A stretch of DNA of 43,367 bases from a virus: positions 1 through 43,367 of the IMG/VR virus record IMGVR_UViG_3300009093_001230; one strand, written 5' to 3'. Positions 1 to 29,101 of the stretch are shown here, one piece after another. The notes under the pieces are model-generated. The model saw only the letters and a program-made list of their open reading frames with translations. It had not been told where the DNA came from and made no database searches. The translations under genes were made by a program, and so were the position numbers. Position 1 is the stretch's first letter, and the number at the start of each line of letters is the position of its first letter.

Positions 1-3000
1 CTACTTGCGGACGAACTGCTCTGAAGCCTGTTTCACTCCTGCCAGGGTCGCATCCCGCTCGCTCGCGGTCATCCCATTGTCCTTCCCATCTCGGAGATAC
101 TGCTCTGCGGGACGATAGATGCTCTGGTACCACGCTTTCAACTCTTGGAAGCGTGTCGTCTGCTCATCCGTCCGGAACTTGTCGCCCAGGCGCTGCAGTG
201 TCCCGTATTCCATTGCGAGGCGTTGCGCGTTGGCCGGCATGTCGAGCTTCAGCCTGGCTGCCGCCTGTTGCTCCAAGGTCATCGCCGCGACCTGTTGTTC
301 GTGATAGCCGGCGTCCGTGATCTTCACCATCCCATTGATCATCGGAAGATTCTTGAGCTGCTCCGTGGTCATGCCTGTCTGCGGATCGAAACTTACGAAG
401 TTGCTCATTCCGGTCTGTCCATACGTCCAGGTCAGCATCGGCTTCACCCCATCCCATCCGCCGGCGAGAAACTGTGCATCACTGAGCACGAACTTGCCGC
501 GGAAGTCATCGAGCGGATTCTGTCCCTGCAGGTAGGTCTTCCAGCCGCTGGCCATCTTGATCATCGGATTCAATCCGGGCACGTCGCTGTCGATCTCCGC
601 CAGATTGTGCTGCAGCATAGTGCCGACGCCCGTACCATCCGGCGGATTCATTTGCTGCAGCTCGGTGCCGAGTAGCCCGTGCTGTGCGGCGAGCGTCCCT
701 TCCGTCTTTAGTGCGTTGTAGAAGATGCCAGAGATGATCCTATCCACCGGATCCTTGGGGATCGGGATGAATACCACCTTCGGCCCATAATCGCCCTGGC
801 CGGTCGTGCCCAGCGGGATGACATCGTAGTTCGCCTTGTAGTGGTCCGAAATGCCGTCGTAGAGCTTCTTGATTGCTGCCCCGAGAAGTCCGATCGATCC
901 CGCTACTTTCAGCACCGTCCACACGCCGTTTGTCATTGCCCAGCGAAACCACCATGCCGCCGGCGACGTTGCTCGCTTGCCTGGCTGATCGGTTCGCTGA
1001 AATCCTTTAAGGGCGAGCTGCATGTCTGCCTGCCAGCCGCGCATCCAGATGTTCACGAAGGGAAACACCGGATTCACCAGTGAGATATGTTTGCCGCGTT
1101 TGTTGTAGTTCGGCGTCCCGATGAAATTGCGGACGTAATAAGCAGCCTCTTGCGGTGACCAGCCGAGACGCTCCCTCAGGACCTTGTAAATGCTCGCCTT
1201 GGGCACGATCTCATTGATGCGCCCGGCCATCTGGACCGACTTCAGGACCTTTGCGACAAAGTTCGGCACGATCTTTTCGATCCATGTCTCGTGACCTCCT
1301 TCCTCCGGCAATACCTTCACCTTCTGCAGCAGCCTATCGAAGGAAGTCGACGGACGGGCCGGCGTGACATCAAACATCGCGTCGCCTGGAGTGATCGCGA
1401 GGTTATCCAGCATTTCGGCAATGAGCGGCTGTTGCTTGCCTCGCTTCACAAAGTCACGCGCTGCGTCCAGGACCGGATTGGGGCCGATGCTCTTAATGAG
1501 CGGCATCTGACGCGCGATGTCCCAGAAGCCAACGCCAACCGGCGCGTTCACGAAGTTTCGGCGCACGTTCCGCATCGGGTGACGGAAGAACTGGAACACC
1601 GGATTGAACTCGATGAAAAGCGGATGGAAGAATTTGCGGAAAGGCGTGTTCAGGATGCTCAGTGCGGCGTCGAGGAGCGGGATGTCCGGACGATCGAACA
1701 TGTAGGCAATTTCCTTCGGCACGTTGTACCAGGCTGGCTTTCCCGCTTCGCGCACCATGATCTGCTCCACGCCTTTCTCGCGCGGCTGCCGTGGCGTTTC
1801 CCGGCCGTTTCCGTCCCGCACCGTTTCCGCGCGCTGGATCTCCGCTGGCCAGTCGCGCTGCAGGATCCTGACCGTGGTCGCCTTGAGCCTCTGATGCTGG
1901 GTCGCACGCATCAGCGTCAGCACCTTTGAGACGGTCGAGACAAATGGATTCTGGATCTCTTTTAGCGTCCCGGCCTGTCCCTGCAGTCCTGCCGGCAGAA
2001 AGATGTCCACGTACTCGAGCGGCGTGAAGGTCGCATAATTGTCACGATTGTGCCCGATCAGCGCCATCTGCTCGTTGGTAAACATTCCTTCCTGATGCGC
2101 ATCCTTCATCACATCATAGACGAGATCGTGAAAGCGCTGTACCGCCGAGTCCAGGAGTGTCTGCGCTCGCACTCCGTTCTCCAGCCTCTCCGACAGCAAC
2201 TGCAGCCGTGCGGTCTGGGGCGTGTGTCCTTGCGGGTTCGCGATCACACTTCGTCCGCCCGTGGTCATGCCGAGCTGCTCCGCGATGCGCCCCGAGATCG
2301 GGTAGCTCTCGTTGGCGATGCGCTTGAAGAAGAGCTGACGGCCGATGTCATCCATCGAGAAACCGGATGCCTGCGCGGGTTCGATCACCGTACGCTGCAT
2401 GCGTTCCAGCCAGCGATAAAGCTGATTGTCCGCCAGCGGGTGCTCATCGAAGAGGAAGCGGGCTGCATCGTTCACGCGCCCGGTGCCGGCGGCGTCCTCC
2501 CGATCGAGAAGAGGGGAGAAGTTATCGAAGAATGCCTGCTTTAGCATCGAGAGCCATCCAGAGAATCCCTTGTACCGCTCTTCGCGTTCCTTCCACTTCG
2601 TCTCGAAGATGTCCTGGGCTTTGGCGAACATCTCGTCTGCCTTGGTGGCGCGATCCTTCAGGATCTGCATTGCCGGGCGGCTCAGCCACTTTTGCATCTC
2701 AAAGAATTGCGTCTTTACCTCGGGCTTAGTATCGAGTCCGCGGAAGAATTCCCGGTAGAACTTCGGTGCCATCTGTTTCAACGTCGCCGGCGAGTTGAAG
2801 AGCACGCTCAGCGCATCCGCGTACAGCTCGGCCGCGCTCTCGCGGTACTGCACGTAACCCTTTGGATCCGTTGCCGGATCATATGGTTTCCAGTACTTGC
2901 TCAAGCCGATTAACTCGGCGCGCATGTCGTTGTTTGAGATCGCTGCAGCCCCGAACCGGTCCTTCGCGTATTTGGTGAGGGAGGATATCCACCCATGCAG

Positions 3001-6000
3001 GTTGCCGCGCTTCATCACCTTATCCGGCAGCCATCCGACCAGGTGTCCGATCTCATGTCCCAACGTCTTCGCTGCACTCACGGGATCCGAGAAAATCCGG
3101 GGATCCAGCCGGATCCGTCCATTGCCGAGGGCGGCGAATTGTCCCCGCGCTTTGCTCATTCGCTTCAACTCAGGCAATTGACCCATCAGCTCACGAGCGA
3201 GCTGCACGAGTTCCGGCATCTGGACGATCTTGATATCGTTCAGACCTTTCAGCGGGACCGACGCATAAGGATTCCCTTTGTCGTCCACTGCCTGCACGGG
3301 CGAGTATCCTTCGGGCTCTTCACGCAAGCTCTGCCGATCGGTGGCAGCGTCCACCACGTACCTCGCGTGCTTCTCCAGAAAACCCGCCGCTGCCGCGCTT
3401 GGCAGGCTCGGCCATGATCCGTCGATCACTCGTGGTCCGCCGCTCAAGAGATCTTTGAGCGCGGTGAGTTGGCTCAGGATATCCAGGGGCTTCGCGTCCT
3501 GCGGGAATGAGACCGCGATCCCGTACGCTCCTTCCCGCGCCGCGCTGTTTCGGAGGGCGCCGGCCAATTGCGCCAGAGTGAGGTTCGCCGGCTGACGCTC
3601 GATCGCAGTGAGAGTTAGTTTGGTCGTGAGGTACGCCACATGCACTGCGTCGGGATCGCCGGTCCGGAGCGTTTGGACCAGTTGCCGCAGATCGCGATTG
3701 GAACCGGTTTTCAGCAATTCATTTCGCGACACCATTTCCCACGGCGCCGGCTCTGCGGCAAAGGTGCCCTCGCCACCGCGCCGCAGGGAGAAATACCGGC
3801 CATGGTTGGTGATCACGTGGTCCGTCATGTTGTACCCCGCCTGCTTCAGCGCGTCTTGAATCAGATTAGTGATCTTGTGATCGGCGGCGCTGGGCGTCGG
3901 ATCGCCGCTCGGGTGGTTGTGCGAAATGATCACATCCTTTCCGATCCCGCTGCTGCGCTGCATAAAGCGGATGATTTCCTGCGCGGATGCCACGCTCTCG
4001 TTTAGCGCGCCAACATGCAGGATCTCCGAGGCTTCGATTTGTCCATTGTTCAGCTTCAGCACCCGCAAGACTTCCTTATAAGGATTGCGCAGGATGCCCT
4101 GGAAGAGCCGCGCCACATCTTCCGCGGTTGCCACCTTTGCCCCGCGAAGGCTGACCCCTAGTTGTGGCTCCTGGACAAGATTCGCGGCGATCGATGAGAT
4201 CGTCTGCCCTTCGGTGAAGGCCTTCCGGATCTCCTCCGGCTTTGCCGTGCCTGCCGCTATCTTTCGGAGGACTTCGGCTCGCTGCTTGGCGGTGCTGGCA
4301 CCGGCACTGGCTTGTCCGCTGGTGGGTAGATAGTATCCGGTAGCCTCAGACCCTCCTCCGCTTCCTCCCGGGGCAGATACAGACCCTCCTCGCCCGGTTG
4401 ATACACCACTTCCGGTGTTTCCGAGTGGGAGGTCGAGCTGTCCATGGGCGGTAAGATTATCCAGATTTCGCTGCCGGGCAACGAAATCTGTTTGCTTGTC
4501 GGGATTGGTGACTTGTTTGGTATCGAGGTAGGCAGCATCCGCCCCGGGCGTCGAGCCTGGCTGCAGAGAAGCGTTCATGCGCATCATCAGTGCTGGCGAT
4601 TCGCCCTGGCGCGCGATCACACCCCATGCCCTCACGCGATCGGAGGAAAGACTCCAATCACCCGTGGCGAGCGCCACGATATCGCCGGCATGATACATGC
4701 CCATCACCAGCGCCTTAGACTGATGGTCCAGCGGAAATCCGGCCGCCTCGAGTACGTCGGCGATGCGCACGGCAGGAAAGCCGAAGTCCTTCACTTGCCG
4801 CTGATACGCCTCGATGATCTTACTGCGCTGCTCCGCTGTCGGAGTTTGCGCCGGAGTCACCGTCTTGCTCGCAATAACTCGATCTGCCGCCTGCTTATAT
4901 TCATCCTCCGTTTCCTCCACGACCATGCGATGCGCGATCTGCACATGATTCAAGTCGAAGACAACAGCCTCCGAGTTGGGTGGAGTTTGCCACGAGACAC
5001 GTACGCCTTCCCACCCCTGCTGTTGTAAGATCTGGGTAGCGAGGCGCGACCGTTCCCTCAACTTTTCCTGGTCCCATTCGCTTACACTCATACCCGGAGG
5101 TCTTCTGGGCGCCGAATAATTGATCGCTGCGTCTTCGTCATCCCCTACCGCCGAACGATTAACCATGTTCCCGTTCTCGTCGAACACCTGCCACACTTTG
5201 ATCGTCTTACTCGTATCTGGATAACCAGCCATTTCCTGTTTCAGCTTCGCCGTCCATCCCTTTGGTATGAGCACGCGATCTCCAAGTATTTCTCCCGCGA
5301 GCTTCCAGGCTGCATTCCACTCTTCGCGACCTGCAAATTTTCGTGCCGATACTCGCACTCGGTACACATTTCCGCCCTTGCCGGCATAGGTCTGCGCACG
5401 CCATTGACGATTTGTGAGGTAGACACCATTTCCGAAATATCCGTAGTCACTCTTCTGCGTATGCTCGAAGCGCTGGAATGTTAGTGGGCTGCCGTGAAAC
5501 CACTCTTCACCTTCGTCTTCCGGCTCTTCCTTCACCACCTCCGGCTCTTTCGGTAAATCACTAAATAACGCCGAACCAGGCTGCAGCGCGGATTGCAACG
5601 TGTCCATGATGCTCCGCTTCTCTCCGAAGAGATCCGGCGCATCCTGATGCTGTTGCACCGCCCGATTGACCCGCGCGAAGGTCTCCCGCGCATTCTCCAG
5701 CGTCGGCTCTGTCTGCAATCGTCCCGCGCTATCGGTCACCACGGCGCCACGCAGCGCCGCGGCGACCGCTTGCGCCGGCGCATGCGCGGGATCCAGCTCG
5801 CTCTGTGCGGCGACGGTATCCAGCGCTTGCGGCAACTTATCGACGCCCTGGTTCTTCGTGACATCGAGCGTCGTCGTAAAGGTCCGAGCGATCGCATTGG
5901 CGATGTCATTCGCACCCTTCTGCCGAAGTGAAATCAAGGCTGGCGTGGCTGCATCGATCAGCCCGCGCATAGGTCCATTTGCTGCACGGCTATCACCACG

Positions 6001-8259
6001 CGCTTCCGCGATCGCCGGTTGCTGAAAGGCGGCATTCACCAGGAGCCGCTGCACATAGTCCTGGCTCTGCGACGGACTCGCTGCAGTGCCGGCCAGCCGA
6101 TTGCGATCGACAGTTCCGCTGCTGATCAGCTGCCGCACGAAGCCTTGTGCCTCCTGCGGTGCAATGTCCATGTTCACGTTCGCGAGCTGATCGATCGGCA
6201 CCGTTGCGGCGTCGACCTCCGCGCGTTTTGCCGTGGATTGCACCATTCCAGGCGACGGATTGAGCGCATCCACCATGCTCTGCAGCCGCGCCTGGTCGCC
6301 GGACTTGCGGAAGTCAAAGGTCCCAAGGTAGCGCACGATCTGGCTGTCTGCGTCTGGCGCCGGCTGCAGTCCGAAGTTGCTCGCCTTCGTGTTACTGTAA
6401 TCAAGCGTCGCCTGCCGTTGGTCCGGCGAAAGATTTTGCATCGCCCATTGCCGATTGTTTCCACCCACCACCGCCAGCGTGGCGTTCCCGTCTCCATTGA
6501 TCACGCGCGCGACCATGGGCGGACCGACCGCCGCGTCCGGACTGTCAGTGACTGCTCGACGTGGATCCCAGCTATTGCGTGTGGCGAGCGCCTTGTCCTT
6601 CTCCGCCTGGTCTCCGTAATCCCGCGTGTTCGTGAGTGGGTAGTCAGGATTCGCTGCAAGTGTCTCCCCGGTATGTGACGGCTGAATCATCGCTTGAGGA
6701 GCCCATGCATAACTTGCTGGATACTCTTCGCCCTTCGCTCCGATCACCACGGTCGGCGCGCCGCGCTTCACGCTGTCTTGCGTGACAAGTTGTGATTCGA
6801 ATTGTTCCTGGCTATCGCTTGGCGGTTCGGTTGGCGGGGGAGTGCCGGCCTCTGCACCAGGTTCACCTGTGGGCAAGCCCGTTGGTCCGTTCGGTGCCTT
6901 CGCGCCTTTGAGCGTGACCTTCACCGCTCCGAGCGGTGCTTCGCCTCCTTTCTCATGGCCGACGACTTCCGTGTCGCCCGCTTTGCCGCGTCCTTTGCCG
7001 ACCATCTGTTCCGCCGAAACATCAAATTGTGCCGGATCCAAAGTCTGCCCGCTTTGCAGCACGCCCTGGAACTTATCCTTCATCGCATCGAAGACCTCAC
7101 GCTCAGCCGGACGAAGGACATCGCGCGGATCCAATCCCTGCGCCGCCGCATTGGCGCCACGCGTCCAGATCTCCGCGAGTTGATCGGAAGAATAGTTCTT
7201 CGATTTGAGCCCGAGTCCGGACATCGCCACGCCCAGCGCGCCGCCTAGGACCAAGCCCATCGGACTCATCTTCGCGTCCGGATCCGACAGCTTATCCAGT
7301 GCTTGCGCGCCGGCCGCTCCCGCGACGCCGGCCACTGCCGGCTTGGCGAGGAATGCAGTAGCCGCCATTGCGCCCTTTGTCTCCTGGACCAGCTTCGCCG
7401 CCTGCAGCGCCTTCGCAAGGCCGAATGGCGCCGGGATCACCATGGTTGCCAGATCGCCGCTCGTGTAGGCTAGGGGATGCAATTGGCGCGCCGCCTGCAT
7501 GGATTGCGGGAGGATTGCATCATACACCTCGCCCGCGGTTGAGCCTGCGGCGACAGATGCCGCCGGGACAAGAGCGAGTGAAGTAAAGGCGCTCTCCGGA
7601 GCCGTAGCTGCGACCGCTGATCCCGTTGCCGCGCCGGCGCCAAGCGTTACGAGCCCACGCCCCAGTCCCGCGATTGTTGCGTTCGCCATTGCGTCTGGCC
7701 CGGCTTGCTGCCGCAACGTGCGTTCGGTCTGCGCCGCCTGCTGCACGAGATAGGCAGAGTGCATGCGGTTGTCGTAGTCCTCTGGCGAGATCACACCTGC
7801 CGCCAGGGCATTCTTGAGCGCTGCAGGATACCGCGTCGGATCGAGAAACACCTGTCCTGCTTCGATCCGCATCGGTGGTTCATTACTGTCAAATTCGCGC
7901 GGCTGCAGTGGCGTCCAGCGTGGAGGCAGTGATGGCTCACGGCTCATCACGTCCGCCGTGGTCGGCGTCTTTGGCGCGGACTGTAGGGCCTGCGCATCCG
8001 GTAATCTCCGCTCCAGCTCATCATTCGAGATCCATCCCGCCGCGTGCAGATCCTGCAGCGCATCAGCCGGTCGCGCGGGATCCATCAGGATCTTACCATC
8101 CTGCAGCTTGAAAGCCGCTTTGGGCAAGTCCCCAAAGAGCGAGCCGGACGGCTGTGCTTGTGGAGCCGGTGAAGGCGTTGGTGCGGGTGTGTCCTGTGGT
8201 ACATCGGCAAACGGCGCCGCCACCGGACCGTCCTTTGGAAGGTCGTCAAAGAGTCCCAT
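1..8259 (-). CDS. Giant polyvalent virion protein (2752 aa)
   Basis: Probably packaged in the virion and ejected with the genome; this role is inferred from the class of phage polyvalent proteins. Visible modules in order: two short repeats at about 50-90 and 130-165 (pattern G-x-hydrophobic-LDP...AL..AAG.IS...); a Gly/Ala-rich hydrophobic stretch at about 190-350; a ParB/DdrB-like region at about 510-880 containing GGNNRQWAMQNL; an ADP-ribosyltransferase-like module at about 915-1105 starting WFHGSPLTFQRFEHT; a RadC/JAB metalloprotease-like domain at about 1365-1495 with HNHPSGDPTPSAAD; a zincin motif HEIGH near 1733; then a long helical region with FNPVFQFFRHPMRNVRR near 2215-2240, typical of large polyvalent-associated domains. 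The motif LF-x-DLPK occurs at the N terminus, near residue 42 and near 893. It is the last gene of the leftward late operon and ends exactly at the window edge with TAG. The start is 12 bp after the preceding stop, with an AACC-rich leader and no clear Shine-Dalgarno. Confidence 0.85.
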   Translation of the reverse strand: MGLFDDLPKDGPVAAPFADVPQDTPAPTPSPAPQAQPSGSLFGDLPKAAFKLQDGKILMDPARPADALQDLHAAGWISNDELERRLPDAQALQSAPKTPTTADVMSREPSLPPRWTPLQPREFDSNEPPMRIEAGQVFLDPTRYPAALKNALAAGVISPEDYDNRMHSAYLVQQAAQTERTLRQQAGPDAMANATIAGLGRGLVTLGAGAATGSAVAATAPESAFTSLALVPAASVAAGSTAGEVYDAILPQSMQAARQLHPLAYTSGDLATMVIPAPFGLAKALQAAKLVQETKGAMAATAFLAKPAVAGVAGAAGAQALDKLSDPDAKMSPMGLVLGGALGVAMSGLGLKSKNYSSDQLAEIWTRGANAAAQGLDPRDVLRPAEREVFDAMKDKFQGVLQSGQTLDPAQFDVSAEQMVGKGRGKAGDTEVVGHEKGGEAPLGAVKVTLKGAKAPNGPTGLPTGEPGAEAGTPPPTEPPSDSQEQFESQLVTQDSVKRGAPTVVIGAKGEEYPASYAWAPQAMIQPSHTGETLAANPDYPLTNTRDYGDQAEKDKALATRNSWDPRRAVTDSPDAAVGPPMVARVINGDGNATLAVVGGNNRQWAMQNLSPDQRQATLDYSNTKASNFGLQPAPDADSQIVRYLGTFDFRKSGDQARLQSMVDALNPSPGMVQSTAKRAEVDAATVPIDQLANVNMDIAPQEAQGFVRQLISSGTVDRNRLAGTAASPSQSQDYVQRLLVNAAFQQPAIAEARGDSRAANGPMRGLIDAATPALISLRQKGANDIANAIARTFTTTLDVTKNQGVDKLPQALDTVAAQSELDPAHAPAQAVAAALRGAVVTDSAGRLQTEPTLENARETFARVNRAVQQHQDAPDLFGEKRSIMDTLQSALQPGSALFSDLPKEPEVVKEEPEDEGEEWFHGSPLTFQRFEHTQKSDYGYFGNGVYLTNRQWRAQTYAGKGGNVYRVRVSARKFAGREEWNAAWKLAGEILGDRVLIPKGWTAKLKQEMAGYPDTSKTIKVWQVFDENGNMVNRSAVGDDEDAAINYSAPRRPPGMSVSEWDQEKLRERSRLATQILQQQGWEGVRVSWQTPPNSEAVVFDLNHVQIAHRMVVEETEDEYKQAADRVIASKTVTPAQTPTAEQRSKIIEAYQRQVKDFGFPAVRIADVLEAAGFPLDHQSKALVMGMYHAGDIVALATGDWSLSSDRVRAWGVIARQGESPALMMRMNASLQPGSTPGADAAYLDTKQVTNPDKQTDFVARQRNLDNLTAHGQLDLPLGNTGSGVSTGRGGSVSAPGGSGGGSEATGYYLPTSGQASAGASTAKQRAEVLRKIAAGTAKPEEIRKAFTEGQTISSIAANLVQEPQLGVSLRGAKVATAEDVARLFQGILRNPYKEVLRVLKLNNGQIEASEILHVGALNESVASAQEIIRFMQRSSGIGKDVIISHNHPSGDPTPSAADHKITNLIQDALKQAGYNMTDHVITNHGRYFSLRRGGEGTFAAEPAPWEMVSRNELLKTGSNRDLRQLVQTLRTGDPDAVHVAYLTTKLTLTAIERQPANLTLAQLAGALRNSAAREGAYGIAVSFPQDAKPLDILSQLTALKDLLSGGPRVIDGSWPSLPSAAAAGFLEKHARYVVDAATDRQSLREEPEGYSPVQAVDDKGNPYASVPLKGLNDIKIVQMPELVQLARELMGQLPELKRMSKARGQFAALGNGRIRLDPRIFSDPVSAAKTLGHEIGHLVGWLPDKVMKRGNLHGWISSLTKYAKDRFGAAAISNNDMRAELIGLSKYWKPYDPATDPKGYVQYRESAAELYADALSVLFNSPATLKQMAPKFYREFFRGLDTKPEVKTQFFEMQKWLSRPAMQILKDRATKADEMFAKAQDIFETKWKEREERYKGFSGWLSMLKQAFFDNFSPLLDREDAAGTGRVNDAARFLFDEHPLADNQLYRWLERMQRTVIEPAQASGFSMDDIGRQLFFKRIANESYPISGRIAEQLGMTTGGRSVIANPQGHTPQTARLQLLSERLENGVRAQTLLDSAVQRFHDLVYDVMKDAHQEGMFTNEQMALIGHNRDNYATFTPLEYVDIFLPAGLQGQAGTLKEIQNPFVSTVSKVLTLMRATQHQRLKATTVRILQRDWPAEIQRAETVRDGNGRETPRQPREKGVEQIMVREAGKPAWYNVPKEIAYMFDRPDIPLLDAALSILNTPFRKFFHPLFIEFNPVFQFFRHPMRNVRRNFVNAPVGVGFWDIARQMPLIKSIGPNPVLDAARDFVKRGKQQPLIAEMLDNLAITPGDAMFDVTPARPSTSFDRLLQKVKVLPEEGGHETWIEKIVPNFVAKVLKSVQMAGRINEIVPKASIYKVLRERLGWSPQEAAYYVRNFIGTPNYNKRGKHISLVNPVFPFVNIWMRGWQADMQLALKGFQRTDQPGKRATSPAAWWFRWAMTNGVWTVLKVAGSIGLLGAAIKKLYDGISDHYKANYDVIPLGTTGQGDYGPKVVFIPIPKDPVDRIISGIFYNALKTEGTLAAQHGLLGTELQQMNPPDGTGVGTMLQHNLAEIDSDVPGLNPMIKMASGWKTYLQGQNPLDDFRGKFVLSDAQFLAGGWDGVKPMLTWTYGQTGMSNFVSFDPQTGMTTEQLKNLPMINGMVKITDAGYHEQQVAAMTLEQQAAARLKLDMPANAQRLAMEYGTLQRLGDKFRTDEQTTRFQELKAWYQSIYRPAEQYLRDGKDNGMTASERDATLAGVKQASEQFVRK

Positions 8260-8271
8260 AGTTGGTTTGGA

Positions 8272-9399
8272 TCAAAGTCCCGTCGTGTCCACGCCCCATC
8301 CCTGCAGCCGAGCCAATACGGCCGCCCGGTTCTGTCCCGATTGAATCGCGCCCTGCGCTTCCTTGCGCAGGGCATCATCGTTCCATCCCGCCGGCTTCGG
8401 ATTCGCCGGTTTGGCTGGCGCCTGCACTGGCGTCACCGGAGCGGCGGGCGCCGCTTGGACCGGTGCCGGCGCAGGGGTGGGCGCTACATCGTTCGGCGTT
8501 GGGAGCGGAGTGCCGCCGGCGTTCGGCATCAGGTTGAGGTTCACCCCTCCGCCTGGATTGGTCGGGAGTGCCGGCGCCTGCACCGGCTTCGTTCCGGGCG
8601 CTGGCGCTACGGTCGGCACGGTTGGCTTGCCTGGTGCGAGTTGTTTCCGGATCGTGTCGATCTGTTCCAGATTCCGCGCCTTCTGCGCGGTCAGTTCCGT
8701 GATCTGGTCCTGGTAACTCTTCCCTCCGGTCACCTTGCTAAACCAATCAAGTCCCGGGTAATTGTTCCCGTTCGAAATCTCCTGCTGATACTGCCCGATC
8801 GTGTCATCGATGCCCTTATTCCGCTGCAGAATCGTTTCGATACTCGCTGCCGCACTCGGCGGGAGGGTGGTGCCTCCGTGCACCTGTTCCAGCTTCTTGC
8901 CGTCATAATAGAAGTTACCCGTGCCGGTCGGATCGCTGCCGATCGGAATGCCTGGCTGCGGTTTATCGGGCATGGGTACATACGATCCTCCGTGCTTCGA
9001 CTGCGGGAGATAGATCATCCCGGCGTCTTGCGCCTGCTTCAGCGTGTCCGCATCCGGCGCCCATGGTTCGTCGCGTTGCTGCACGTTGTACCAGTCGCGA
9101 TTAGAGGCGTCAGTGCTCTTCCAATCCTCCATATCCTGCTGATGCTGCTGCCGGGACTTCACATCTGCCGCCGTTGCCGCCGTGATCATCCCGCGTTTCG
9201 TGCCGACCGATCCATTCTGGAATTTCTGCAACTGTTCCGGATCGTTGCCGAAATAGTAATCGGCCATTCCGCTAAGATAGTCGTGCTCTTCCTGGTTCTT
9301 GCGGATCCCTTCGATGCCATCAGACAGTGCCTTCGAGGCAATCTCCGCCCCGCGCATGATATACTCGCCGCCGTGGTTGGTAACGCCCGGATTATACAT
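8272..9399 (-). CDS. Putative virion protein with Pro/Ala-rich linker (375 aa)
   Basis: Not recognised as a named family. The N-terminal two thirds is hydrophilic with a helical/coiled-coil stretch near residues 240-265 (LTAQKARNLEQIDTIRKQL). A long Pro/Ala-rich linker follows, then a short C-terminal helical segment beginning WNDDALRKEAQ that resembles a small peptide-like or helical tail module. The start overlaps the preceding gene's stop by 8 bp and has a good Shine-Dalgarno (AAAGGAAG) about 7 bp upstream. Position between the internal-virion-like gene and the giant polyvalent protein suggests a virion or ejection protein; this is inference from context only. Confidence 0.75.
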   Translation of the reverse strand: MYNPGVTNHGGEYIMRGAEIASKALSDGIEGIRKNQEEHDYLSGMADYYFGNDPEQLQKFQNGSVGTKRGMITAATAADVKSRQQHQQDMEDWKSTDASNRDWYNVQQRDEPWAPDADTLKQAQDAGMIYLPQSKHGGSYVPMPDKPQPGIPIGSDPTGTGNFYYDGKKLEQVHGGTTLPPSAAASIETILQRNKGIDDTIGQYQQEISNGNNYPGLDWFSKVTGGKSYQDQITELTAQKARNLEQIDTIRKQLAPGKPTVPTVAPAPGTKPVQAPALPTNPGGGVNLNLMPNAGGTPLPTPNDVAPTPAPAPVQAAPAAPVTPVQAPAKPANPKPAGWNDDALRKEAQGAIQSGQNRAAVLARLQGWGVDTTGL

Positions 9400-10690
9400 A
9401 GATCGACTTCCTTTCTGCTTCGACGATTCGTTCCATCACGCTGCGCACGCATGCCTTCACACGCGCATGCTCGTGCAGCCAGCTGGCGAAACGCTCGCCG
9501 CGCGCAAAGTAAAGCTTCCGTAGCCAGGTCGGGCATTTCCGGCTCATCAGCCAGCCCCGGAAGAGCACCCACTTCAGCCATGGTTTCTTTCCGATCATCA
9601 CGATCTCCGTGCCGAAGACTTCCCGTGCCACCCAGCACTTTGCTGCGGCGCCGGCCATGCTTCCTACTGCGCCGATGATCGCGCCATGGATGGCCGCCAT
9701 GTTATTGGCGTTGCTGATCCGCGTTGCGGCATCGGAATTGAAGTTCGTGTTATAGAGATCCGAGCCGTAACTCAGGACCGGATCCATCGCTTGCGGGCCG
9801 GCACCGATGATGTTCGGGCCGCCGCTGAGATAGCTTGCCGCTGCGGTCGGAGAAACTGCGGTTCGCTGTCCGTAGATGCCCAGGACGGGGTTCAAGGCGT
9901 TCTGGTTGGCTTGTTGCGTGTTGAGCAGGAATTGCTGACCGGCGGTGGTCGATTGCTGGTTCTGCCCCTGCACCATTCCGGCGAATTGCCCGAGCTGCGC
10001 GCGCTGCGCCGCGAGCGCTGAGTCTTCGCTCTGCCCGAGCTGCTGGATCTGCGCGGCGTACTGTTCGCGCTGCTGCAGCCGCTGCTGCTGCGCGGCGTGG
10101 GTATTGAGCGCCTCGGTGGCGATCGCCGGATCTGAGTACTCGAGTCCGCGCGCGGCAAAGGCAGCCCGCGAAGATTGATCCACATCGCGCAGCTCATCGG
10201 CTGAGAGTGCGCCCCCTAAGGCGAGCTGATCCTGGGCGCCTTGCGTCAGTGAAGTCCGGAGTGCACTCGGCGCGAGGTTGTCAGCCGTATTCAGCGCACT
10301 CGTTGCGGAAGTATTCAGCCGGCCGAGCAATGGCGTCGGGGTCATCGCCGTCGAAGCGGCGTTGTTCACCGCGTTCAGGCTGCTCTGCCATCCTGGGTTG
10401 ATCTTCCCGAGTGCTGCCTGAATCTTCGGTCCGTACTTGCTCAGGTCCGCCGCGTCCTGGGCGCGCTGCGCCGTGGTCGCCGCCTGCTCCGCCGTGACGA
10501 GCTGCGGATAGAGCGAGAGCGCTTCGTTCGCGAAGTCCTGCCCGAGGCCGAGCTGCGCTTGCCCGATCTGCGTGCTGTAGCCGATCTCGTCGTTCAGGAC
10601 CGGCTTGGCTTGTTTGCTGATGTTGCCGAGTTCCTCGTTGAGGTGCCGAGGATCCATCTGCGCCGATTGTCCAAAGTATCCGCTGCTCAT
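9392..10690 (-). CDS. Putative internal virion/tail protein with C-terminal CWVAREVFG domain (432 aa)
   Basis: The first 300 residues are Ala/Gln-rich and helical, with many heptad-like Q/A runs, as in phage internal virion or ejection proteins. The last 90 residues form a separate module starting CWVAREVFGTE and rich in Trp/Arg (KWVLFRGWLM, WLRKLYFARGERFASWL). I have seen this module at the C terminus of many phage virion-associated proteins, but its function is unknown. I chose ATG at 10690 because it forms an ATGA overlap with the upstream stop; an ATG four codons earlier is possible. It sits with the other late virion genes between the tail fibre and the polyvalent protein. Confidence 0.75.
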   Translation of the reverse strand: MSSGYFGQSAQMDPRHLNEELGNISKQAKPVLNDEIGYSTQIGQAQLGLGQDFANEALSLYPQLVTAEQAATTAQRAQDAADLSKYGPKIQAALGKINPGWQSSLNAVNNAASTAMTPTPLLGRLNTSATSALNTADNLAPSALRTSLTQGAQDQLALGGALSADELRDVDQSSRAAFAARGLEYSDPAIATEALNTHAAQQQRLQQREQYAAQIQQLGQSEDSALAAQRAQLGQFAGMVQGQNQQSTTAGQQFLLNTQQANQNALNPVLGIYGQRTAVSPTAAASYLSGGPNIIGAGPQAMDPVLSYGSDLYNTNFNSDAATRISNANNMAAIHGAIIGAVGSMAGAAAKCWVAREVFGTEIVMIGKKPWLKWVLFRGWLMSRKCPTWLRKLYFARGERFASWLHEHARVKACVRSVMERIVEAERKSIYV

Positions 10691-11061
10691 ACGTGAAGGC
10701 ATTGTGCGAGCGCGCGCACTCGCTGGGTTGGGTAGACGCGCAAAGGTTGAGGCCCGCGCCGGCGGCTAGAGCCACGGTGGAAGGCGAGATAGGGCAGATC
10801 GTAGGGCAGGAGACTGAGCAGCAGGTCCAGGTGCCCCGCTGCACTCCACACCAGCCAGGTGTCCGGATTTACAAAGGGATGCGGTATGCAGGCCAGCCAG
10901 CGCTCCTCGGCATCGCGCCTCACGGGCCGGGCCATGGCAAAGAGCTGTGGAAAGGAGAGGACGTAACCGTGCAATAGGTGCTGGTTCACATCCGCCCAGA
11001 AGTCCCGCGGACTATCACTCTCCCGATATGCTGCCCAGGCTTTGAGGATCGCTGGTGTCAT
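10687..11061 (-). CDS. Small conserved phage protein, function unknown (124 aa)
   Basis: Starts MTPAILKAWAAYRESD and contains a Trp-rich central motif FVNPDTWLVWSAAGHLDLLLS followed by YDLPYLAFHRG and an Arg-rich end. No catalytic motif is evident. It is joined by ATGA overlaps to both neighbours (start in the stop of the 704-aa fibre gene, stop in the start of the 432-aa gene), so it is almost certainly translated as part of the late operon. A longer reading from position 11157 exists but would run into the upstream gene by 99 bp, so I prefer the ATG at 11061. Function cannot be given. Confidence 0.7.
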   Translation of the reverse strand: MTPAILKAWAAYRESDSPRDFWADVNQHLLHGYVLSFPQLFAMARPVRRDAEERWLACIPHPFVNPDTWLVWSAAGHLDLLLSLLPYDLPYLAFHRGSSRRRGPQPLRVYPTQRVRALAQCLHV

Positions 11062-14949: not shown

Positions 14950-15498
14950 TTAAGATTTCAGAAACGCCGCCAGATCCCGATCGCGATCCAGCCAGCCCTT
15001 GAGGAACTTTGTCCGCCTCGGCAACTTGGCTAGCACCCGGAACCGCGCATCGCGCTCCGCGAGAAAGATCGTCACAAGATCGTCCTGGTTCGCGGATTGA
15101 AGGGCGGCCAGAGTGGCCGGCCCGAGAATCCCGTCCTCGGTGAGGAAAGGCTCGGCTGAATGCGATGGCGCGATGTTATAGGCGTGCTGCAGCCATTCCC
15201 ACGCGTGGCCGCCATTCACCCACACATCAAAGGCGCAGATCGCCAGCTTGTCCGGAAGTGCATCGAGGTTGTGCGCATCCCAGTAGCGTTTCCGGTAGAT
15301 GGCAATCGCCTCATCCTTCGTCAGGTTCGCGATGTCCACGCCCGGATTGCTCGCCTCGTCGATACCGTACTTCGTCAATCCGCCGGCATCGCCGGACACG
15401 TTCTCGGTGACGACGAAGTTTTCATCGCCCCAGTGTCCACGCGCAAACTCCTCTTCGTGCGGCAGCACGAACGAGATCGCTCGAGTAAATGCGTCCAT
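14950..15498 (-). CDS. Endolysin, GH108-type muramidase with peptidoglycan-binding domain (182 aa)
   Basis: Predicted to cleave peptidoglycan at lysis. The N-terminal domain matches the GH108 (DUF847/ZliS) pattern: FTRAISFVLPHEEE with the likely catalytic Glu near residue 15, GGLTKYGIDEASNPGVDI, IYRKRYWDAHNLDALP and CAFDVWVNGG. The C-terminal part (about 120-178, DGILGPATLAALQ..., LAERDARFRVLAKLPRRTKFLKGWLDRD) fits the PG_binding_3 domain usually paired with GH108. The usual H-E-G-G is H-E-E-E here. Start is firm: AAAGGAG lies 8 bp upstream and the ATG shares one base with the stop of the preceding small lipoprotein gene (TAATG). Lysis cassette neighbours include two membrane proteins. Confidence 0.9.
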   Translation of the reverse strand: MDAFTRAISFVLPHEEEFARGHWGDENFVVTENVSGDAGGLTKYGIDEASNPGVDIANLTKDEAIAIYRKRYWDAHNLDALPDKLAICAFDVWVNGGHAWEWLQHAYNIAPSHSAEPFLTEDGILGPATLAALQSANQDDLVTIFLAERDARFRVLAKLPRRTKFLKGWLDRDRDLAAFLKS

Positions 15499-17122: not shown

Positions 17123-18718
17123 TTAGAATCCAAAGAAGGGCTTCAACACGGTCACGATTGGAGTCACCCATGTTGCCGTGCCGACCGACGTCACATGCGA
17201 TCCGTCATTGACCGTCAAAGTAAGTGCCACACCGGCAAGGTTCCCGCCCGTTTGCAACAGGTGTCCGTCGCTGGAAATGATCGATTCGAAGTTCGAGCTG
17301 ACATCGCTGCTGTCGCTCACTTTGATCACACTGGCCACCCGCGCCTTGCGCAGCGGAAAGAATTGGACGGAGATTGACTGACTGCCGCCCGTGGCATTCG
17401 CGCCGGTAAATCCGCCGGAAATCGTCCTGTATTTCGTCGTGTCTTGCCACGCCGTATTTGTGCCAAATCCGGAAATGGTCGTCAGGTCGACCGTCGCATC
17501 CGCTCCCGAATTCGACGGGGTATTCAAAGACAGATTGAGTGCGGCCCTCTGAGTGTCGGCCGCATTTTGCGTTGTCGTATCCGTGTCCGCCTGTTTCGGA
17601 ACCATTGTCGCCTGCACGACGAAGGCACCTTGTGCCTTGGCTTTCGAAACCCATGTGGCTTGATTGCCTTCTACGGTTGCGGCAGAGGCTCCGGTCGCAA
17701 CATCGATTGATCCCGTAAACACCAAAAGGCCATCGCCAGATTGCAAGCAATTCAGCTGGTTATCGTATGGAGGCGCACCGGCAACTTGCGTTGCCAATGT
17801 CCGGCCGCCGTATGCCGCATTGATGAAACGGACTTGCGGCATCGCCTTCTGCAGTTGGTCCACGATCGTTCCGCCTGCATCCTGTGCCGTACCTTCTCCA
17901 ATGGAATCGCCGGTCACAAAACAACGAGGCCGGTAATCTTTCACGAAGCTATCGTGTAGATAGGCGCTGAGTTTCCGGATTTCCGTCGGCTCTAACGTTC
18001 GATTCCAGAAAGCAAATGCTCCGACATCGACCACAAACCCATTCCCCGCATCCAGGTTTCCGATTTGGACGGGACCGTCCATTGGAATCGTTGTGGTACC
18101 AGTGGATTGCCCGCTGACACACACTCCGTCTATCCATAATATCGCCAACCCGTTGACGCTTTGAAACGTTTTGCTCCCATCATAAGTCCAGATCGCCACG
18201 AGAGGACGCGCCGAACCGCTGACGGTGCCGGCTGAAATACGCCCCTTTGCGCCAATCCCGCCCAGCGGAAAGTGTTGCATGTTAAACTCCGGATTTTGCG
18301 AAGTTTGCAACTGGATTCCGGTAGTCAGGATGCTATTTGCAAAACTCCCAAGCCCGTTGATTGTCGATTGCCCGCCATATGATGTGCTCTTCGGCCACAG
18401 CACCATTGCCACAGAGAAGTTTGCATAATTCCCGCTGAGGAGGTTTGCGGCGGTGGCCAACATGGATGAGCCAGTGCAATGCACCGACGGGTTACCGCAG
18501 ATCCCACCGCTCGAATAGAACGCATTCCCGTAGCCGGCATTGATCGCTTGAGCGGCGGCAACGGTGGCGATATTCCCATTCTTTCCCGTCCAACTGGTGA
18601 CATTACCACCTTCCGAGATACCTTTGATGTCGCGAGCGTCCCAATACTCGACCGGATTGGTCTGCTGCAGGGGATCTTTCGTTGCTGCCGGTCGAGCCAG
18701 CGAGGGAATAGGGATCAT
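17123..18718 (-). CDS. Receptor-binding / tailspike-like protein with LamG-like and SGNH-like domains (531 aa)
   Basis: Residues about 20-250 form a beta-rich concanavalin/LamG-like region (YWDARDIKG, VAMVLWPKSTSYGG, LAILWIDGVCVSG, FAFWNRTLEPTEIRKLSAYL). Residues about 262-420 look like an SGNH/GDSL hydrolase fold: FVTGDSIGEGT (block I, Ser272), NAAYGGRT (300-306) and FTGSIDV (335-340) where block III is normally G-x-N-D. The expected C-terminal D-x-x-H is not evident: DTTKYRTISGG at 426-436 has no His. It may deacetylate host polysaccharide or may only bind it. The last 90 residues are beta-rich. Upstream coupling is by ATGA. A role at the tail tip is inferred from context. Confidence 0.7.
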   Translation of the reverse strand: MIPIPSLARPAATKDPLQQTNPVEYWDARDIKGISEGGNVTSWTGKNGNIATVAAAQAINAGYGNAFYSSGGICGNPSVHCTGSSMLATAANLLSGNYANFSVAMVLWPKSTSYGGQSTINGLGSFANSILTTGIQLQTSQNPEFNMQHFPLGGIGAKGRISAGTVSGSARPLVAIWTYDGSKTFQSVNGLAILWIDGVCVSGQSTGTTTIPMDGPVQIGNLDAGNGFVVDVGAFAFWNRTLEPTEIRKLSAYLHDSFVKDYRPRCFVTGDSIGEGTAQDAGGTIVDQLQKAMPQVRFINAAYGGRTLATQVAGAPPYDNQLNCLQSGDGLLVFTGSIDVATGASAATVEGNQATWVSKAKAQGAFVVQATMVPKQADTDTTTQNAADTQRAALNLSLNTPSNSGADATVDLTTISGFGTNTAWQDTTKYRTISGGFTGANATGGSQSISVQFFPLRKARVASVIKVSDSSDVSSNFESIISSDGHLLQTGGNLAGVALTLTVNDGSHVTSVGTATWVTPIVTVLKPFFGF

Positions 18719-27071: not shown

Positions 27072-28880
27072 TCAGTAGGCTCCGCCGCCCCGGCTCCGCA
27101 TGCTGTCCGGCTCCATGTAAACCGGAGGATCCAGCGCGAGGTAGCGCACGAGATCGGCGAAATCCTTTGAGGCTCCGTGCTGTCCGTCGAGCCCCGTGTA
27201 ATTCTCGAACATCCAAAGGACGTTCTTGCAATTCTCCGTCACCAGCAAACGCGGTCGATTAATGTGGTCGATCCGCCGATCCTCCTCATACCAGAGCAGA
27301 TCGTGGATCTGGTCGATACCCTCCCGCATGTGCTCGCCCGGTGCCGGTTCAAAATTCATTCCCAGCTCCGAAAGTGACTCGATCAACGTCACCGTCTCAC
27401 CCTTGGCTAGTGTCGGCGCATTTCCAAACCGTGAGTCCATGACCCTCTCGTAAATCGCTTCGATCTTACTCGCCGGGCCATTCCGCTGGGTTTTCGGTGG
27501 TGTGCAGTCCATCGCCTCCACGGCTGCCTCGATCTCCGCATCGTTCCATCCCTCCGCAATCAGGATCTCCTCGATCCACCGTTGCAGCCCAAAGCCCCAG
27601 GGCTTCTGTGCATCACCTTGCTTGCCGTCCGGTTTCTTTGCGTCCAGCTCTGCCCACCATCCCGGATCACCCACGCCGCGAATATAACTACCCGGAGACG
27701 GCCACTCCCGATAGATCACCACCGTGCGCGTATCGGGCAACGCTCGCCCCCAGATCATCGCCGGATTCCGTCCGCTGCACGGGTCAATATACTGCTTGTT
27801 TGTCCCGTCCTTCGGCAACTCGCCCTCTTTGATCATATGCACCTTCCGGTTGAACGTCGGGAACAGATTGCCCGCCAGCTTCTCCGCTACTCCATACACG
27901 CGCTCCAGGATCGACTTCCTTCCGCCGGCACGCGCCTTCTTGATCACCTCGCCGGCATTGGCGAATGGGTTATCGCTCAGATGGAAGTACACGATGCTCA
28001 AGTCCGGGTTCGTGCCGGGATTTGCCTTCTGTACCCGAGGCACTGTCTCACATCCTCCCGGCGCTCCCAGCTTTGGCAACAATGGTGCTGGCACCCGCAC
28101 TACATCCCGCGCGCTTTCCGTCAGCTTCGCCACGGTCGGCGTAAACCCGTCCTTGGGCGTGAAGTCGATAATCAAATCCCCCGCACGTTGCGCCAAGCGG
28201 AACCGCACCGCTTCGATGAATTCCCACGGGGCCAGCTCCGTCATCCAGGCGATGTCGATTTCATCGCCTTCGAGCGAACCCACATCCATCGCATAATTCA
28301 GGAACCAGCATTGCGAGCCATTCGTGCCCACAAAGGTCGGTGGTTCACCCGAGAAGCCTGTCGCCGGCTTATACCGAATGTAGGCTGTGTGATGCTTCCG
28401 GATCTGCTTCCACTCCGGCGGGATGAATTTCCATACCCGTGGCTGTTGTTGCTGGACGCTGCGCGGTCCGGACATGTGAAAGCACCAGGCGCGCTGCATT
28501 CCCTTATCGAACATCCGCTTCACGATCGTCCGCCCCCCATACTCGCTTTTGCTCGAGCGATTTGCTCCGGACACGTAGACTTCGCCGCCGCCCATAATCT
28601 CCTTTGGCACGCTATCCGTCGGATCGATCAACACCACGCGATTCCCGCGGACAAGCAGATCGTCCACAATATGCCAGATCTTCGGCTCATACCCATGCCG
28701 CAACGGATCCTGCGTCCGTAACTCAATCTTGTGCTGCCGCTCGGTGAGATAGGCGACAAACTCCTGAGGGTGCTCCCGCAAAGCCCGCTCCATCTCGTCA
28801 GCCGAGGGAAGGGGCAGCACGGGATCGTCCACCGGGACGAATGGCAATACGGGAAGTCCTGCTGTCAGTCCTTGGCTCAT
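27072..28880 (-). CDS. terL: Terminase large subunit (602 aa)
   Basis: ATP-dependent packaging motor and nuclease. Deviant Walker A at 105-112 (GANRSSKS), Walker B EIDIAWMTE at 207-215 (D209, catalytic E215), and the coupling segment IIDFTPKDG near 237-245. The nuclease half begins after about 350 with acidic residues (QYIDPCSGRNPAM, RGVGDPGWWAELDAKKPDG) that could bind metal. The C terminus ends in LDPPVYMEPDSMRSRG. ATG 28880 is chosen because it makes ATGA with the upstream stop; a longer reading from 29039 would overlap that gene completely. Confidence 0.9.
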   Translation of the reverse strand: MSQGLTAGLPVLPFVPVDDPVLPLPSADEMERALREHPQEFVAYLTERQHKIELRTQDPLRHGYEPKIWHIVDDLLVRGNRVVLIDPTDSVPKEIMGGGEVYVSGANRSSKSEYGGRTIVKRMFDKGMQRAWCFHMSGPRSVQQQQPRVWKFIPPEWKQIRKHHTAYIRYKPATGFSGEPPTFVGTNGSQCWFLNYAMDVGSLEGDEIDIAWMTELAPWEFIEAVRFRLAQRAGDLIIDFTPKDGFTPTVAKLTESARDVVRVPAPLLPKLGAPGGCETVPRVQKANPGTNPDLSIVYFHLSDNPFANAGEVIKKARAGGRKSILERVYGVAEKLAGNLFPTFNRKVHMIKEGELPKDGTNKQYIDPCSGRNPAMIWGRALPDTRTVVIYREWPSPGSYIRGVGDPGWWAELDAKKPDGKQGDAQKPWGFGLQRWIEEILIAEGWNDAEIEAAVEAMDCTPPKTQRNGPASKIEAIYERVMDSRFGNAPTLAKGETVTLIESLSELGMNFEPAPGEHMREGIDQIHDLLWYEEDRRIDHINRPRLLVTENCKNVLWMFENYTGLDGQHGASKDFADLVRYLALDPPVYMEPDSMRSRGGGAY

Positions 28881-29101
28881 GGGTTCTGAGTAATGATCTC
28901 GTGACTCGGCTGCGCGAGATGGTGGCGCATGACGAGGGTTTGTTCCGCGAGGAGTAAGTGCTGCACACAGTCCCTGCAGACCCAGATGAGCAGGTCCTGG
29001 TCGAAGTCCCACATCGGGCCGATGCCGACGGGTTTGCACAACCCGCAGTGTCCGTCGATATGCCCGACGTGGTTGATGATCCGCGCGCGTCCGACTTTCA
29101 T
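28877..29101 (-). CDS. Small zinc-ribbon protein upstream of TerL (74 aa)
   Basis: MKVGRARIINHVGHIDGHCG followed by CGLCK and CRDC (about 19-22 and 42-45), a two-knuckle zinc site. Between them lies MWDFDQDLLIWV and after them the helix LLLAEQTLVMRHHL. ATGA overlaps on both sides. The adjacent genes encode HTH proteins and TerL; a role in packaging or regulation is conceivable. Function unknown. Confidence 0.65.
   Translation of the reverse strand: MKVGRARIINHVGHIDGHCGLCKPVGIGPMWDFDQDLLIWVCRDCVQHLLLAEQTLVMRHHLAQPSHEIITQNP

Follow-up and report, generated by a model that had tools for sequence, protein, structure and literature searches.

Iyer et al (2017) described polyvalent proteins and proposed that the zincins they contain cleave the chain into units (PMC5512222). 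JC1 gp69, a protein of 4515 residues with an LPD38 region, is represented by 51 unique peptides in purified virions (PMC9144972), and the vRNAP of phage N4, which has a zincin-plus-helical C-terminal domain (CTD), is encapsidated and ejected (PMC12633501). Here, we describe P0001, a giant protein of 2752 residues encoded in the IMG/VR virus record IMGVR_UViG_3300009093_001230, a metagenomic sequence of 43,367 bases that was analyzed over its whole length (the window). P0001 belongs to the phage polyvalent proteins as Iyer et al (2017; PMC5512222) define them, a known class: it joins at least two unlike domains in one chain (RadC and zincin firmly assigned, ADP-ribosyltransferase (ART) and ParB probable), and its gene follows portal-like, head, and Hc3-like genes among the late virion genes. 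An earlier inspection of the letters alone, the sequence-only reading, had already used the polyvalent label, which these module calls support. It had also described a single open reading frame (ORF) at positions 1–8259; this frame was confirmed and lies on the minus strand, which that reading left unstated. The ORF occupies 8259 of the 43,367 bases (19% of the record), and its length of 2752 codons is not due to chance. We refer to the part of the protein from residue 1685 onward as the P0001 core.

1–8259, minus strand: giant ORF P0001, 2752 residues, ATG start, closes the late block
2710–3207, minus strand: zincin metallopeptidase-like domain, residues 1685–1850, HEIGH at 1735
4–2709, minus strand: helical chassis, residues 1851–2752

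A chassis of zincin and helical region

The zincin and the approximately 900 helical residues that follow it form one chassis, which is newly recognized here. Direct searches of viral and genome collections with P0001 and with its C-terminal part gave no relative; relatives surfaced only via an alignment and a DNA pattern of the zincin signature, which identified at least 119 stretches in viral contigs and 10 in contigs of bacterial metagenome-assembled genomes. The chassis is present in at least 129 environmental contigs, and in each of them the motif lies inside an ORF. For comparison we used the 79 cores whose C terminus is complete, P0001 included. The P0001 core matches all 79, itself among them (blastp, E ≤ 1e-3), and the nearest among the matches listed are L143 (40%, over the whole core), L197 (38%), and L148 (36%). 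The largest chassis ORF with both ends among the matches listed, L144, encodes 3833 residues, and its zincin lies at 2765.

By sequence, one of 50,697 phage records contains a core match, that of Pelagibacter phage Baldr, whose giant is homologous to the P0001 core; fold searches add more distant ones. The predicted model of the core has a mean predicted local distance difference test score (pLDDT) of 80.3 and a predicted template modeling score of 0.72, and its fold is matched by 58 BFVD models with E ≤ 1e-3 (lowest E 3.9e-30). Several of these bear the name large polyvalent protein associated domain, including one in Ralstonia phage Alix. Four of the 37 aligned cores match LPD38 (PF18857) weakly, at best with E 4.3e-4, and P0001 has no match to it; comparison of the core profile with PDB sequences gave nothing better than E 0.37.

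The presence of a zincin domain in P0001 is well supported by its relatives and by the predicted fold. Residues H1735, E1736, H1739, and E1811 are invariant across 42 aligned cores, and the predicted structure can be aligned with the catalytic domain of lethal factor (Z 8.6, root-mean-square deviation (rmsd) 3.3, 126 residues aligned). Because the HExxH motif and the distant Glu ligand are invariant and the zincin fold is matched, we assign this domain to the zincins; in Pfam, no zincin family was reached with the whole protein or with slices of it. The HEIGH motif that the sequence-only reading had noticed near 1733, and which these invariant residues and the lethal-factor fold bear out, starts at 1735.

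Variable cargo and a repeated tag

The N-terminal cargo differs between phages that bear the chassis. In a Pfam survey (E ≤ 0.01) of 51 of the 70 non-redundant N-terminal parts, Helicase_C was found seven times, RadC five times, SNF2 four times, Zeta toxin three times, and ART twice, with GGDEF, PBECR3, and methylases seen once each. In P0001, the following modules precede the chassis.

3772–4137, minus strand: RadC/JAB domain, residues 1375–1496, with HNHPSGDPTPSAAD at 1447–1460
4948–5499, minus strand: ART-like module, residues 921–1104, with FHGS at 921, H922, and Y947, just under the Pfam cut-off
5590–6762, minus strand: ParB module, residues 500–890, with a ddrB-ParB match at about 509–633 and GGNNR including R603

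The identity of the RadC/JAB domain is certain. It matches the Pfam family RadC over residues 1378–1494 (E 2.5e-21; 76.3 bits against a cut-off of 22.1) and contains the JAMM motif HNHPSGDPTPSAAD starting at 1447, close to 1445, where the sequence-only reading had put it. In NCBIfam, RadC is recognized at 3.3e-22, yet under the equivalog cut-off. The RadC entry 2qlc of the PDB is matched by sequence (E 8.1e-12) and by the predicted domain (Z 18.3, rmsd 1.8, 121 residues aligned).

According to the available text of Iyer et al (2017), RadC is restricted to polyvalent proteins of conjugative elements and absent from phage-type ones (PMC5512222). Contrary to this restriction, RadC is fused into a phage chassis, which is new here. 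The combination of modules in P0001 can be called unusual, because the founding paper, as far as it is available, has RadC absent from phage-type proteins; giants of such build are nevertheless a known class. A search for RadC in 50 chassis contigs gave matches in 10 (E ≤ 0.001), nine of them above the cut-off, and in seven of the 50 contigs, not counting that of P0001, RadC is fused to the chassis. Six of the 10 RadC contigs have the RadC motif and the zincin in one frame, and the seventh case, L243, lies in the frame of the zincin-bearing L133; one of the seven, L245, is under the cut-off and has a divergent motif. In the other three RadC contigs, RadC is a solo gene with a frame of 176–197 residues. 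These solo genes (L236–L238, in G056–G058) belong to the loci L183, L126, and L171 and lie on the opposite strand from the giant; of the loci compared by tblastn, these score best against the fused RadC domain in P0001.

The same comparisons bear on whether P0001 is a single protein at all. The record is metagenomic and ends exactly at gene ends, as might be seen if a frame or assembly artefact had fused separate genes. We consider this extremely improbable, given that RadC, zincin, and core are collinear with L143 over 1428 columns (37%) and that the RadC–zincin fusion occurs in several independent contigs.

The ART and DdrB-like ParB modules are probable by sequence, both with scores below threshold. 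ART-PolyVal (PF18760) matches the whole protein with E 1.2e-4 and a slice of it with E 5.2e-7 (30.9 bits against a cut-off of 31.2). The ddrB-ParB family (PF18763) matches a slice only (E 0.0012; 19.4 bits against 27.6), over nearly the full profile length, and had no match in a six-frame search of the whole record. Over 396 columns, the ParB module shares 34% identity with L197 (E 2.6e-43), with GGN.R kept. In the ART-like module, the acidic residue expected of the fold would be E1097 or D1102. In the structural comparison of the predicted model, RadC chains fill the list of matches, so the lack of ART or ParB chains there says nothing against these two modules. Profile searches, which the sequence-only reading had proposed, upheld its JAB domain and left ART and ParB below their cut-offs: the ART module that it had put near 915–1105 has FHGS at 921 and narrowly misses the cut-off, and its ParB/DdrB-like region is backed by the slice match and not by the six-frame search.

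A short motif, LFxDLPK, is repeated in P0001.

8233–8253, minus strand: tag copy 1, LFDDLPK, residues 3–9
8194–8214, minus strand: tag copy 2, PFADVPQ, residues 16–22
8119–8139, minus strand: tag copy 3, LFGDLPK, residues 41–47
5548–5568, minus strand: tag copy 4, LFSDLPK, residues 898–904, at the ParB/ART seam

The pattern [LP]F.D[LV]P[KQ] is present four times (residues 3, 16, 41, and 898), with codons that differ among the copies, and a wider pattern has no further occurrence in six frames of the window. Shuffled P0001 sequences contain it rarely (mean 0.001 copies, at most 1 in 2000). As the pattern had been picked after sight, the best 7-residue family was also sought without a preset; it is this same tag, with a score of 85, compared with a mean of 72.4, a standard deviation of 3.1, and a maximum of 79 in 40 shuffles. 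The internal copy has p = 0.015, and the best self-pair at the N terminus of P0001 has p = 0.06. L143 has a tag pair of its own (AEEFLNAP at 3 and AEEFLAAP at 609; p = 0.035), and L112 and L108 likewise repeat an N-terminal motif internally. An internal copy of the N-terminal motif was found with p ≤ 0.05 in 10 of 56 giants, six of which form one pelagiphage-like group with a single doubtful shared match. Repeats within the N terminus were assessed in 57 giants whose N terminus is complete, excluding open 5′ ends, short N-terminal parts, L228, and L162; the best self-pair has p ≤ 0.05 in 26 and p ≤ 0.01 in 12 of these 57, many of which are related and not independent. That the tag is repeated at a module seam as well as N-terminally, and that N-terminal repeats recur in the family, is new here, and the literature searched, as far as available, gave no description of a chassis-plus-tag arrangement.

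The remaining segments of P0001 are listed below.

7975–8115, minus strand: SHOCT-like repeat 1, residues about 49–95, resembles residues 227–280 of L143
7726–7866, minus strand: SHOCT-like repeat 2, residues about 132–178
7198–7692, minus strand: Gly/Ala-rich apolar stretch, residues about 190–354, peak at 331–354
4150–4932, minus strand: segment without family, residues 1110–1370, with a Gly/Ser linker at its end
3415–3672, minus strand: alpha/beta segment, residues about 1530–1615, with the strand and helix order of the first half of a JAB domain

Residues 110–306 are similar to L171, L183, L184, and L207, and the apolar stretch at about 190–354 is possibly a membrane-interacting region. 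Profile and relative searches with residues 1110–1370 gave no match. A second, degenerate JAB domain at residues 1530–1615 was considered and dropped, with a profile score of 13.2, where the reversed control reached 13.8.

Genomic setting and proposed role

On the minus strand, the genes are ordered portal-like, major head protein, Hc3-like, tail-fiber-like, two without family, and then the giant. The two genes directly upstream are candidates for ejection partners by their position.

8272–9399, minus strand: upstream neighbor, 375 residues, no match in the family search
9392–10702, minus strand: upstream neighbor, 436 residues, no match in the family search

Because a conserved chassis is combined with variable cargo and a late-gene position, and because JC1 gp69 and N4 vRNAP set precedents, we read P0001 as a cargo-carrying internal virion protein that is packaged, ejected, and possibly self-processed, with a probability of roughly 0.7. 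The chassis would bring the protein into the capsid, from which it would exit through the tail with the DNA at infection, and the cargo (the ParB, ART, and RadC/JAB modules) would act in the host cytoplasm ahead of phage gene expression. The zincin may cleave the chain and thereby free the modules from one another, and LFxDLPK, repeated N-terminally and at the seam of ParB and ART, could be either a processing site or a tag for docking. We infer packaging, ejection, and self-processing, as well as all enzyme activities. Early ejection is plausible by analogy, from gene position and relatives, and an action on host DNA or defense is a guess at the level of the family.

Several points weigh against this carrier reading. 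P0001 is known from metagenomic sequence alone, in a record without a known host. The ART and ParB scores are under the curated cut-offs, the predicted model of residues 495–1684 is poor outside RadC (mean pLDDT 52), and homology of the chassis to the N4 CTD is not established. Pfam and PHROGs scans found no lysozyme or transglycosylase families in P0001, unlike in pelagiphage members. Finally, the Asp three residues past HExxH, which is at least 90% conserved in the 42 cores, is a Gly in P0001 (G1742). An Asp of this kind points into the zincin active site in the available account of Iyer et al (2017; PMC5512222), and because G1742 replaces it, the P0001 peptidase could be altered or inactive.

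The loss of this Asp, together with the low ART and ParB scores and a chassis that is kept while cargo varies, would also suit a structural ejection protein only, which forms or lines a DNA-delivery channel and whose N-terminal modules are inactive remnants. This is unlikely in view of the intact RadC motif and the fit of its domain model to a RadC structure (Z 18.3), of H922 and Y947 retained in ART, of a ParB module 34% identical to L197 with GGN.R retained, and of the various enzyme families that recur as cargo.

The record also encodes an integrase, which makes a prophage role possible, and a DnaB-type helicase. With this integrase, and with solo RadC genes in three chassis contigs, P0001 might instead act outside the particle, as a multi-enzyme defense or exclusion factor produced during infection or in a lysogen. 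We give this little credence, as P0001 stands at the end of the late block, the Baldr and L103 relatives adjoin tail genes, and the LPD38 giant of JC1 is present in virions (PMC9144972).

Going beyond the carrier reading, it is tentatively conceivable that the chassis is a protein-delivery platform of short-tailed phages, with swappable cargo and a tag particular to each phage (here LFxDLPK), repeated N-terminally and at module seams, that is read by a partner from the same phage or by the zincin, and that RadC was recruited from a solo phage radC and possibly undoes ubiquitin-like defense conjugation; taken jointly, these proposals are doubtful. The pairing of a shared chassis with replaceable cargo and a recurring tag offers a concrete handle on which proteins phages inject and on how chains of thousands of residues are addressed, packed, and threaded through a short tail. 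The RadC fusion also narrows the search for the function of RadC proteins.

Elsewhere in the record, the product of 27072–29039 is called terminase-like on the basis of its position and a match to an unannotated protein of phage C75C1; a family scan gave it no name. The termini of the record coincide with the stop of the giant (1) and the start codon of the integrase (43367), and the record has therefore probably been rotated or trimmed to genes. A tail-region protein (17123–18718), to which PHROGs assigns no family, has a motif that we take to resemble a GDSL-type esterase, and the protein encoded at 14950–15498 presumably resembles a GH108-type endolysin.

Comparison with known giant phage proteins

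Phage C75C1 is the closest by portal and terminase-like protein and has giants at the same place as P0001; its 1343-residue protein has no significant similarity to the P0001 core. Six further phages were reached via the terminase-like protein, with HEFGH giants in G004, G006, G022, and G028, HEYFH in G049, and neither motif in G048. None of the giants of these six phages matched P0001 (blastp, giants read in pieces), and a search of 50 of the 80 terminase-related records gave no match to P0001. The giants of G004, G006, G022, and G028 (L085–L096) have an N-terminal region and HEFGH in common and differ in their C-terminal ends, and in the giant of G028, LS[KR]DLPTAKGQA[IM]PD is repeated ahead of each of two ART-like segments.

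The Baldr giant (P0002, 2329 residues) is homologous to P0001 in core and zincin (E 3e-26 and 8e-11) and has the same relative gene position, with tail-tube genes upstream. It differs in its cargo, as Pfam calls no RadC, ART, or ParB family there. By eye, its N terminus has an SLT-like motif region, which Pfam did not call.

Among the LPD38 giants of Bcep22-like phages, JC1 gp69 resembles P0001 in its size and its place as the last gene of the morphogenesis block, and possibly in its C-terminal LPD38-type region; the chassis also has a fold match in Ralstonia phage Alix. The cargo of JC1 gp69 differs, with LT-like, methylase-like, and helicase-like regions and LPD3 according to its table (PMC9144972).

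The N4 vRNAP is likewise a giant encoded beside small ejection-protein genes, with a zincin and, after it, a long C-terminal region of helices. The gene order at L103 (822, 152, and 597 residues, then the giant) resembles that of N4, in which genes for a 16.5-kDa and a 66-kDa protein precede vRNAP. Pfam and PHROGs scans found in P0001 neither the RNA polymerase module of the N4 vRNAP family nor the transglycosylase domain of T7 gp16-like ejection proteins. The helical part of the N4 CTD is described without structural relatives in the available text (PMC12633501). Homology between this CTD and the chassis is not claimed: Foldseek gave E 2.5 at rank 20, VIA-align gave Z 5.2 (rmsd 5.8, 188 residues aligned), which is not significant, and hhalign gave a score of 31.0 with a probability of 1.2% (reversed controls 19.4 and 19.6), also not significant. 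It is suggestive that fold and profile alignments put one and the same core region on the C-terminal end of N4 vRNAP, with neither alignment significant.

The chassis and tag repeats of P0001 were not found in the available part of the account of Iyer et al (2017; PMC5512222). With the phage-type polyvalent proteins of that account, P0001 shares disparate enzyme-like domains, a zincin, a late-gene setting, and, probably, ART and DdrB-like ParB in its repertoire. Compared with RadC-type JAB proteins, it has the full domain with an intact HNHPSGD...D motif, and differs by the fusion of this domain into a phage giant, as opposed to a stand-alone gene.
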